From: Leptolyngbya sp. FACHB-321
GTDB lineage: Bacteria > Cyanobacteriota > Cyanobacteriia > Leptolyngbyales > Leptolyngbyaceae
DNA length: 64,000 nt
Assembly: GCF_014695975.1 (NCBI RefSeq)
Contig: NZ_JACJPI010000081.1
Span: 1-64,000 of the forward strand
Direction of reading: 5' to 3'
A model generated the notes under the pieces. It saw only the letters and a program-made list of their open reading frames with translations. It ran no database searches and had not been told where the DNA came from. Below are positions 2,202 through 5,062 of the stretch, piece after piece (the first letter of the stretch is position 1; each line of letters begins with the position of its first letter). The position numbers and the translations under genes were made by a program.

Positions 2202-3272
2202 TTGCTAGCAGCATTATTGTACGGTCAAGAAGATCTCCGATTAGAAACAGTTGAAGACCCAACTCCAGCGGCAGGAGAAGTCGTTATCCGAGTAGGATCA
2301 GCGACAACTTGTGGGACTGACTTGAAGGTCTGGCGTCGGGGTGGTCATGCTCGGATGCTGAAGCCGCCGACACTATTTGGTCATGAGGCAGCGGGTGAGA
2401 TTGTGGCGATCGGTCACGGTGTAACGCACTGGAAGGTTGGCGATCGCGTGGTTGCTAACAACTCGGCTCCCTGCATGACTTGCTTTTTCTGCAAAAAGGT
2501 TGAGTATTCTCTCTGTCAGAACTTATTGTTCAACAATGGCACGTTTGCTGAATACCTTAAAATTCCAGCGGCGATCGTGCAGCATAACCTGTTGCCCATT
2601 CCAGATGCCTTGCCTGATGCTTTAGCGTCTATGACCGAACCGCTGGCGTGCGTGCTACATGGGGCAGCGCGATCAAACGTGAAGCCGGGCGATCGCATTG
2701 TGGTTTTGGGTGACGGTGCGATCGGTCTCATGTTTGTGGCAGCGCTGGCATCCGGTCAAGGTGAATGGTGCAACCAGCCATCAACAGTTAGCGGTCAGCC
2801 ATTTGCTGAGGTCATTCTCTTTGGTGGCAGTGACCAGCGGCTACAGCTTGGCAAAACGCTGGGTGCGGTCAAAACGTTTAACTACCGTCAAGTAGAAAAT
2901 GTGCCAGCACTGGTGAAGGAATTAACAGAGGGGTGGGGAGCCGATGTTGTGATTGAGGCAACGGGCGTACCATCCGTTTGGGAGATGGCGATCGCCTGCG
3001 CACGACCGGGAGCGACTGTTAATTTATTCGGTGGCTGTCCTCGTGACACCAGTATTACAGTGGATACAGAACGCCTCCACTACAGCGAGTTAACGGTCAA
3101 AGGTGTCTTTCATAACACCCCAACCTATGTTCGAGCCGCGCTGAAACTACTGGCAAGCCGTGCGTTGCCCTTTGAGCATCTGATTACCGAGCAGCAACCA
3201 CTGGCGCAGTTAGGTCAGGTGTTTGAGGCGATGAAGCAGCGAAAAGTGGTGAAGGTGGCGATCGCACCCTAA
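2202..3272 (+). CDS. zinc-dependent alcohol dehydrogenase (MDR superfamily)
   Basis: This is a 356-residue medium-chain dehydrogenase/reductase that oxidises an alcohol or polyol with NAD(P). It has the catalytic zinc site (TTCGTDLK and LFGHEAAGEIVAIG) and the structural zinc cysteines CMTCFFCKKVEYSLC (about residues 88-102). A Rossmann fold follows, although the loop is diverged (VVLGDGAIGLMFVAA, near 168). An extra segment of roughly 13 residues follows that motif (WCNQPSTVSGQPF), which may be a local insertion. The only plausible start is TTG at 2202: the family begins M-x-A-A-x-x-Y, and a stop lies upstream at 2187. Sorbitol- or threonine-dehydrogenase-like members are nearest, but the substrate cannot be assigned. 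Confidence 0.85.
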   Translation: MLAALLYGQEDLRLETVEDPTPAAGEVVIRVGSATTCGTDLKVWRRGGHARMLKPPTLFGHEAAGEIVAIGHGVTHWKVGDRVVANNSAPCMTCFFCKKVEYSLCQNLLFNNGTFAEYLKIPAAIVQHNLLPIPDALPDALASMTEPLACVLHGAARSNVKPGDRIVVLGDGAIGLMFVAALASGQGEWCNQPSTVSGQPFAEVILFGGSDQRLQLGKTLGAVKTFNYRQVENVPALVKELTEGWGADVVIEATGVPSVWEMAIACARPGATVNLFGGCPRDTSITVDTERLHYSELTVKGVFHNTPTYVRAALKLLASRALPFEHLITEQQPLAQLGQVFEAMKQRKVVKVAIAP

Positions 3273-3524: not shown

Positions 3525-4067
3525 ATGAATGCTCCACTGAGCCTGCTACAACGCGCGAAGCAAGGAGACGCTATGGCTATTGCAGTGCTGATGAATGATG
3601 CCTTGCAAGCTCAAGATATTTGGGTAAAAGCCATACTAGACGGCAGTTGCCTTCAGGTCATGTTAAAGGGACAGATGCCATTGCATCAGGCTAACTGCGT
3701 TGCGTTTATCCGGCGAGGTTTACTGCGTCTTCAGCCAAAAGCGATCAATCAGGTCGTTGCTTACGGCTGGATGGTTGGCGATACATTCCCGCTGTGGATC
3801 GCAGCCTTTTCCCTGGAGCAATCTCTGCTGCCACAAAAGCCGCTCCACACTCTAGCAAGCGGGGCGACAGAACCAGCGCTGGAGCATCCACTGCCTCCCA
3901 CAACTGTTCCTGATACCAATACACGACCCAATCAAACGACCGTTCAGCAACCGATCGTATCGCTGGCTAAGTCTTCCAATACTGCCAAGCAACGCTCTGA
4001 ACTTCTCAAGCTTGGTGTCGTCATTGTATTAACGACGGCAGTTTATTTTATGGTAACGGGCGTGTAG
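3525..4067 (+). CDS. uncharacterised protein with cyanobacterial repeat-type domain and C-terminal membrane helix
   Basis: This 180-residue protein is of unknown function. Residues 5-100 form a compact domain (LLQRAKQGDAMAIAVLMNDAL, then IRRGLLRLQPKAINQVVAYGW). It is visibly paralogous to the N-terminus of the next gene (RLAKQGDRAALAQLISYA, then IERELVSLRQDVITTVVING). A Pro/Thr-rich linker (105-155) follows. The protein ends in a hydrophobic helix (LGVVIVLTTAVYFMVTGV), so it is probably tail-anchored. The domain resembles one found in many cyanobacterial hypothetical proteins, which I cannot name. It is probably co-transcribed with the downstream HEAGH protein, whose start is 60 bp after this stop. 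Confidence 0.7.
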   Translation: MNAPLSLLQRAKQGDAMAIAVLMNDALQAQDIWVKAILDGSCLQVMLKGQMPLHQANCVAFIRRGLLRLQPKAINQVVAYGWMVGDTFPLWIAAFSLEQSLLPQKPLHTLASGATEPALEHPLPPTTVPDTNTRPNQTTVQQPIVSLAKSSNTAKQRSELLKLGVVIVLTTAVYFMVTGV

Positions 4068-4088
4068 TTCCGGCGGTAGGAGGGAATA

Positions 4089-4130
4089 ATGCGGGTAGAG
4101 GTATGGTGCCAGGAGGCGCAAACTCGATGA
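4089..4130 (+). CDS. possible 13-codon leader peptide coupled to the downstream gene
   Basis: ATG at 4089 is preceded five bases upstream by a strong Shine-Dalgarno (AGGAGGGA, 4078-4085). It opens a frame MRVEVWCQEAQTR that stops at TGA 4128-4130. That stop overlaps the ATG at 4127 of the next gene as ATGA, the usual geometry of translational coupling. The product itself is probably unimportant. It could equally be chance, with the Shine-Dalgarno serving the in-frame ATG at 4103. Confidence 0.35.
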   Translation: MRVEVWCQEAQTR

Positions 4131-5062
4131 TACAGCCCGATCGCCTTTCAACTACCAAGCGGCTTGCCAAGCAGGGCGATCGCGCTGCCCTTGCCCAACT
4201 CATCAGTTATGCCGTTGCCCATAAGCAGATTGCTGCTACCGTAGCGTTTGATGCTGATCGTCTGCACGTTGGCCTGGAAGGGGTAAGCATTCCTAACCAG
4301 CAGATTGCTACGACGCTGATTGAGCGAGAGCTAGTAAGTCTTAGACAGGATGTAATTACAACCGTTGTCATCAACGGCACCCAGACTGGAGCTAGTGAAC
4401 CAGCCTGGGTGCATGAACTTCAGCTTGAGGCACCAGTACCAGTTGTTGCTAGACCGCTGAGACGATCGCCCTATGCAGCGCACCGCTCGCGTTGTCAAAA
4501 ACCTTTTACCCTTACGGTGAACGATGTCCTGACGTTTTTGGCAACGTTTGACCCACTTAAAGCAGTCTTCGTCAGTCTTCTAGCGCTCTATGGCTTCTTT
4601 GGAGCTTCCAATTACACGGTAGACGGTTTCCTGGAAGGTTCCGATCGCATCATGATGTTTCTGCACGGCGTAAATTTGATTTTTCACGAAGCTGGGCACA
4701 CCATCCTGGCTATCTTTGGGCGCTTTCTACACATTCTAGGCGGCTCGCTGATGCAGGTCATGGTGCCAGCGGTCATTGCAGGTTATTTTGTGGTGACACG
4801 CCAGATGTATGCAAGTGCGATCGCCCTCTGCTGGACGGCACAAAACCTTTGGGATGTATCCATCTACATCAAAGACGCGCAGGTGCGCTCACTGCCGCTG
4901 TTGGGTGGTGAAGGTGTGTTGCATGACTGGCACTTTCTGCTGCTCGACTTACATCTGCTGACTCAAGATCAACTGGTGGGTGGCATTGCCTTCTTCTTAG
5001 GTTCGCTGCTGTATGTAGCTGCGATCGCGGGTGGCTTTTACTACGCTCGGATGGAGACTTAA
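4127..5062 (+). CDS. membrane protein with HEAGH metalloprotease-like motif fused to an uncharacterised N-terminal domain
   Basis: About 311 residues. The N-terminal ~95 residues repeat the domain seen in the upstream gene. After a basic linker comes a multi-helix membrane domain (about 140-311). At its second helix it carries GVNLIFHEAGHTILAIFG, an HExxH zinc-binding signature set in a membrane helix as in M50 site-2 proteases. Later segments include a conserved-looking LLGGEGVLHDWHFLLLDL, which might supply the third ligand. No PDZ or cytosolic domain is present. Start choice: ATG 4127 (AGGAGG 11 bases upstream, coupled to the leader frame) or ATG 4103 in the same frame. Proteolytic activity is inferred from the motif only. 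Confidence 0.65.
   Translation: MIQPDRLSTTKRLAKQGDRAALAQLISYAVAHKQIAATVAFDADRLHVGLEGVSIPNQQIATTLIERELVSLRQDVITTVVINGTQTGASEPAWVHELQLEAPVPVVARPLRRSPYAAHRSRCQKPFTLTVNDVLTFLATFDPLKAVFVSLLALYGFFGASNYTVDGFLEGSDRIMMFLHGVNLIFHEAGHTILAIFGRFLHILGGSLMQVMVPAVIAGYFVVTRQMYASAIALCWTAQNLWDVSIYIKDAQVRSLPLLGGEGVLHDWHFLLLDLHLLTQDQLVGGIAFFLGSLLYVAAIAGGFYYARMET

Follow-up and report, generated by a model that had tools for sequence, protein, structure and literature searches.

The window analysed here comprises 64,000 nucleotides of Leptolyngbya sp. FACHB-321 (contig NZ_JACJPI010000081.1), in which two neighboring genes on the forward strand, P1 and P2, encode proteins that begin with the same domain of ~95 residues (N-domain, Table 1). 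The two copies share 32 of 95 residues (34%) at E = 4e-09 in a single BLASTP comparison, confirming the common N-terminal domain proposed in a first-pass annotation of this DNA. That annotation also had P1 ending in one membrane helix and P2 continuing into a multi-helix domain with HExxH in a helix, and both descriptions hold. P1 contains a lone hydrophobic stretch at its C-terminus, which is retained in the aligned orthologues of relatives L019–L023 and L080, and P2 contains several hydrophobic segments, with HEAGH lying inside a predicted helix of residues 174–197 (numbered from the ATG at 4127). P2 had been listed with a start at 4103. This is unlikely, as in relative L019 a stop codon directly precedes the methionine matching position 4127; the true start is probably 4127, yielding a protein of 311 rather than 319 residues and a gap of 59 bases between the two genes. 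Rough dN/dS values, obtained from four relatives each at saturated dS (1.3–3.3), are 0.09–0.13 for P2 and 0.10–0.25 for P1. Being well below 1, they suggest that P1 and P2 are real genes, which look to be under purifying selection. Promoter- and terminator-like sites between positions 3200 and 5700 were not above the level of shuffled sequence.

Table 1 Features of the P1–P2 locus, in window coordinates
Feature	Position	Strand	Description	Basis
P1	3525..4067	+	180 aa; shared N-domain, linker, tail-anchor-like C-terminal helix	ORF, hydropathy, alignment, dN/dS
Shared N-domain of P1	3537..3818	+	residues 5–98	BLASTP
Single membrane helix of P1	3996..4064	+	residues 158–180	hydropathy
P2	4127..5062	+	311 aa; shared N-domain fused to an HExGH-bearing membrane domain; formerly listed start 4103	
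Shared N-domain of P2	4145..4429	+	residues 7–101	BLASTP, structure prediction
Membrane domain of P2, type T1	4508..5059	+	residues 128–311	
HEAGH	4685..4699	+	residues 187–191; candidate zinc ligands H187 and H191, candidate catalytic E188	HExGH invariant in 25/25
GGSLMQ segment	4739..4756	+	invariant G205, G206, Q210	T1 alignment
D250	4874..4876	+	candidate third ligand; next residue small (A/G/S) in 25/25	T1 alignment
HDW	4922..4930	+	residues 266–268; possible third zinc ligand or active-site residues; invariant	T1 alignment

Family searches with the two proteins returned no credible relative: Pfam gave no match at E up to 10, NCBIfam a single chance match (E 1.7), PHROGs one match only (E 0.27), and PADLOC nothing. 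Searching the PDB by sequence retrieved two antibody chains for P2 (E 0.7) and nothing for P1 or for a profile of the P2 membrane domain. Published descriptions of the N-domain or of the P1–P2 layout were likewise not found among titles and abstract openings, a search whose scope mostly excluded subscription journals.

The membrane domain of P2, here termed T1, was characterized from an alignment of 25 distinct sequences, namely P2 and 24 relatives, of which 17 sequences carry the N-domain, one (L027) lacks it, and seven are short standalone proteins from another class of the phylum. Although pairwise identity falls as low as 21% (median 40%), H187, E188, G190, H191, G198, G205, G206, Q210, P214, Y247, D250, L258, H266, D267, W268, and L272 are invariant. 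The first-pass annotation had tied its reading of P2 as a membrane protease to the conservation of HEAGH in homologues and to a common orientation of the two histidines. The motif is kept as HE[A/F/T/L/G]GH in all 25 sequences, with the spacing to D250 being 63 in 22 of them, and H187 and H191 lie one turn apart in the predicted helix rather than on opposite faces (moderate model confidence). With HExGH, a later aspartate, and HDW all invariant, the metalloprotease reading thus survives the test of motif conservation.

T1 is sparsely distributed. A single query (E up to 0.01) matched 11 of 386 genomes of the phylum, including one chance match, and a profile search found T1 in 10 of 386. The chance match (L018, E 4.4e-4) lacks HExGH at the corresponding position and was dropped before counting. 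Full-length T1 proteins occur in 16 of 58 relatives, and T1 in 13 of 42 genomes of the order. The short standalone form (L011–L017) was found in 7 of 18 genomes of the other class; these genes may be located on contaminant contigs, a suspicion raised by the fact that each of the seven genomes falls short of 90% completeness, exceeds 5% contamination, or does both. No relative of T1 was present among 57 pattern matches in viral contigs, and two T1 members used as queries had no match in plasmids.

Site-2 proteases (M50) are among the closest known families. Their motifs comprise the HExxH zinc motif and a conserved LDG on another transmembrane segment, as described in PMC10202637. T1 shares with them an HExGH in a predicted hydrophobic helix and a later invariant aspartate. 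The mean hydropathy of 19 residues centered on HEAGH is 0.84 in P2, inside the range of the four site-2-protease genes that this genome carries (0.35–1.04), whereas the most hydrophobic 19-residue stretch nearby reaches 1.16 in P2 compared with 1.18–2.48 in these four. Instead of LDG, T1 has an invariant D250 followed by A, G, or S; LDG itself is not conserved, being present in only 4 of 25 cores and there upstream of HExGH. The invariant HDW is, to our knowledge, not a site-2-protease motif. P2 further differs in having no Pfam PDZ or CBS match and carrying the cyanobacterial N-domain instead. Neither PF02163 nor PF13398 matched P2 (E up to 10) or 13 T1 members (E up to 1), for which Pfam returned stray single matches only (best 0.038) and NCBIfam equally stray ones (one member matching a transporter model at 0.0066 and two matching a VirB3 model, best 0.025). 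When compared as a profile with the four site-2 proteases, T1 gave P values of 0.0034–0.0073, hardly different from the value obtained with an unclassified HEAGH protein (P 0.004). Since both the sequence match and LDG are missing, we do not claim M50 membership for T1.

A second HExGH membrane family, T2, is M50B-like (GGG.T ... DNDF), occurs in 12 of 58 relatives (examples are L082, L084, L089, and L093–L104), and carries the N-domain at 12 of 12 loci. With E allowed up to 1, Pfam gave weak M50B scores for 8 of the 12 (best 0.0016), those among the matches listed being below the curated cut-off. T2 resembles T1 in the N-domain, HExGH, a glycine-rich segment, and, judged by eye, a late aspartate motif (DNDF versus HDW), and differs in its longer core and its different invariant residues. 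The T1 and T2 profiles matched at P 3.5e-5, or 2.3e-4 with query and target exchanged, compared with at least 0.0034 for T1 against site-2 proteases and controls, and T2 matched site-2 protease L061 at P 1.5e-4. These links, together with HExGH in one helix, a glycine-containing segment, and an aspartate plus A/G/S close to where a later predicted helix ends, would suit T1 being a very divergent site-2 protease with D250 as the LDG aspartate. However, the T1–T2 alignment spans just 27 columns around the motif, and the lack of Pfam M50/M50B matches in 13 T1 members and of a conserved LDG count against it. We regard this as conceivable though doubtful; it is a special case of the zinc metallopeptidase reading favored below rather than a competitor. 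On so short a match, a shared origin of T1 and T2 would likewise be no more than a possibility. T1 and T2 behave as if they were alternatives for one role: 16 and 12 of the 58 genomes carry them, respectively, and none carries both (3.3 expected, P 0.012), an exclusion weaker than its P value because the genomes are related. By genus, each occurs in 9 of 42, with no genus common to both.

The N-domain also heads members of a third kind of putative membrane protease. Two cyanobacterial PrsW proteins (PF13367), L035 (E 4.7e-29) and L049 (E 2.1e-28), carry one and two copies of it, respectively. The fusion is rare among PrsW, as these are 2 of 55 PrsW ORFs in the loci collected, and the membrane domains differ, a PF13367 match being absent from P2 in the Pfam scan. 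Fusions of PrsW to toxin domains, another arrangement, are described in PMC3482391. The presence of the N-domain on both PrsW and T2 supports a protease role for P2 by association.

Structure prediction was of limited use for the membrane part. The full P2 model has a mean pLDDT of 65.9 and a pTM of 0.36, and the membrane domain alone 71.6 and 0.56, with the HDW loop mostly below 50. In the search for the three-helix catalytic core of site-2 proteases, these low-confidence models gave no peptidase of any kind, PrsW included, in the best 50 of 254 and the best 50 of 112 Foldseek matches, and the VIA matches listed for the same models contained none either. DUOXA1 ranked first in VIA (Z 9.4, rmsd 3.5, 95 aligned), accompanied by other helical bundles in a range that the tool calls common, and was again on top in a second structural comparison (Z 8.0, rmsd 3.5, 93 aligned). 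Such matches to unrelated helical proteins, the missing peptidase family match, and an invariant H266-D267-W268 that is not known as a site-2-protease motif would fit a membrane domain that binds metal via HExGH, D250, and HDW for another purpose, for instance as a membrane-bound oxidoreductase, a metal transporter, or a lipid-modifying enzyme. On the other side stand the two further membrane-protease families headed by the N-domain and the motif itself: HExGH with invariant Glu and Gly is a classical zinc-peptidase signature. We consider a non-peptidase function unlikely.

Regarding the N-domain, the first-pass annotation had viewed it as a possible adaptor shared by a two-gene system. Part of this view stands, since the domain is a genuine and reused module, also found on other membrane-protease families, and part does not, since its use extends far beyond this pair. 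The N-domain of P1 matched 41 of 194 genomes of the phylum, and 55 of 58 relatives matched the P2 alignment A1, mostly via the N-domain, with up to 14 matches per genome. A profile recovered 88 copies in 78 host ORFs of the loci collected, P1 and P2 included; as the profile was seeded with these two, their own match is given by construction, whereas their pairwise E of 4e-09 is independent of it. The host list is biased, because loci were partly fetched for T1 and T2. In this list the domain lies at or near the N-terminus, L006 being the one host with a C-terminal copy. The consensus of 86 distinct copies reads ElAKQGDxxAIAxLmNrxLxxkgitakvxLxxxCLxvmLEaxxxPxQxxxvxfirxglxxLxxxxIxxVxvyGrqxGxxxPxWxeefxL. 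For P2, helices are predicted at residues 6–15 and 19–31, strands at 36–42 and 45–52, a helix at 58–72, and strands at 79–86 and 94–99, in a fairly confident model (mean pLDDT 79–91 in blocks covering residues 11–100). Among the matches listed for this model are RimP (Z 7.7, rmsd 2.3, 71 aligned) and the GTPase Era (Z 6.5, rmsd 2.6, 83 aligned); it also matched the alpha-lytic-protease-prodomain-like structure 4hlb (Foldseek E 0.27; Z 6.8, rmsd 3.5, 84 aligned). We draw no function from any of the three.

Pfam scans of 20 hosts identified, above curated cut-offs, type IV pilin-like G/H, pentapeptide repeats, DUF4870, PGA_cap (twice), SHOCT, and PrsW (twice) as partners, and, below the cut-offs, EcsC (twice) and M50/M50B (once), with no Pfam family in 9 of the 20. 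A search with the P1 N-domain alone returned 29 loci outside the window, three of which have a membrane-protease-like partner (two PrsW, one T1), as judged by motif and a two-sequence PrsW profile and, for ten hosts, also by Pfam. Most N-domain proteins are therefore something else. The N-domain is a widespread, promiscuous cyanobacterial module that is not specific to the P1–P2 pair, and we read its role as docking or regulatory.

Whether P1 and P2 belong together was addressed via their genomic neighborhoods. P1 adjoins P2 in the window and in L019–L023, that is, in 6 of 6 T1-bearing genomes of the genus; a seventh genome of the genus that was searched (G388) has no T1 match. The order ADH-P1-P2, in which ADH is an alcohol dehydrogenase gene, is conserved throughout these genomes, and mraY follows P2 in the window and in four of the five relatives, the L023 stretch being the one in which it was not found. 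Outside the genus, no second N-domain gene was detected near T1 in any of 9 testable relative genomes (1.6 to 5.8 kb upstream), a tenth T1 genome, G404, having been left out because its contig ends just upstream. The stretch examined beside T1 in L025 also contains no second N-domain gene. Conservation of gene adjacency thus holds within the genus of the window and was not seen in the genomes tested outside it. G412 carries ADH directly before T1 without P1 in between, and this ADH is the one neighbor found to be kept across T1 loci beyond the genus. Conversely, G392, a genome 82% complete, encodes a P1 orthologue (43% identity) with no ADH next to it on its 7.9-kb contig and no T1 match in the genome. 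An origin of P1 from P2 by recent tandem duplication was rejected, as several other hosts outscore the T1 proteins when compared with the P1 N-domain; an N-domain tree, read without regard to support values, separates the two as well.

These data argue for P1 and P2 not forming a functional pair, with the N-domain serving generic localisation, docking, or small-ligand binding and the adjacency being synteny inherited in one genus: P1 lies next to T1 only there and within a conserved ADH-P1-P2 stretch, T1 elsewhere had no second N-domain gene within the stretches inspected, the P1 orthologue of G392 occurs without a detected T1, and the N-domain of P2 is not the nearest to that of P1. Against this stands the adjacency in every T1-bearing genome of the genus, as do neighboring N-domain genes at other places. 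Sets of two or three adjacent N-domain genes were seen in L209, L210, L211, and L212 (genomes G170, G027, G068, and G394), regions from which no rate can be derived because they were picked on the hint of clusters in the match lists. An N-domain protein (L144:112-747), 35% identical to P1 over the domain, is encoded 4.1 kb from T2 at 1 of 12 T2 loci, and one T1 chain carries two N-domains (L025:7707-8960). Combining modules may therefore have meaning. On balance, we hold the absence of a functional pair to be slightly the better bet. The sensor-plus-protease system suggested by the first-pass annotation is not borne out, given that P1 is adjacent only in the genus of the window and that its orthologue in G392 was found without T1; no sign of a sensor role for P1 emerged from this analysis. 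For P1, a role as clade-specific partner or client of P2 is the most that might tentatively be proposed.

Taken together, we read P2 as a membrane-embedded zinc metallopeptidase of type T1 headed by a general N-domain module, with P1 as a partner at most, and assign this reading as a whole a probability of about two in three. P2 is probably an intramembrane zinc protease missing from the family catalogues. By motif logic, the two histidines of HEAGH, H187 and H191, would coordinate zinc together with a third ligand from among D250, H266, and D267, E188 would activate a water molecule for catalysis, and a client protein would be cut in one of its membrane helices or next to it. The N-domain is probably cytosolic, as by eye no signal-peptide-like sequence is apparent ahead of it and the linker behind it is basic, and may dock clients or regulators there; P1 would be a tail-anchored carrier of the module alone, with any role in P2 function being conjectural. 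A farther-reaching version has one interchangeable docking domain heading three unrelated intramembrane metalloprotease families (T1, M50B-like, and PrsW), T1 being unrelated to M50, and the N-domain on tail-anchored proteins such as P1 marking partners or clients by like-with-like contact in a cyanobacterial network of regulated proteolysis. We deem this version improbable, even more so than a non-peptidase function of the membrane domain. If the favored reading of P2 is true, T1 would be a family of small membrane metallopeptidases new to the catalogues and marked by the invariant active-site signature HExGH...D...HDW, and a cyanobacterial module without credible Pfam or NCBIfam match in P1 and P2 would be common to three putative membrane-protease types and to pilin-like, pentapeptide, and other proteins. 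This module would then offer a handle on what these proteases recognise. One further host is an 894-aa protein (L208:5577-8258) in which the N-domain is joined to what, by eye, looks like a Ser/Thr kinase with ankyrin repeats.
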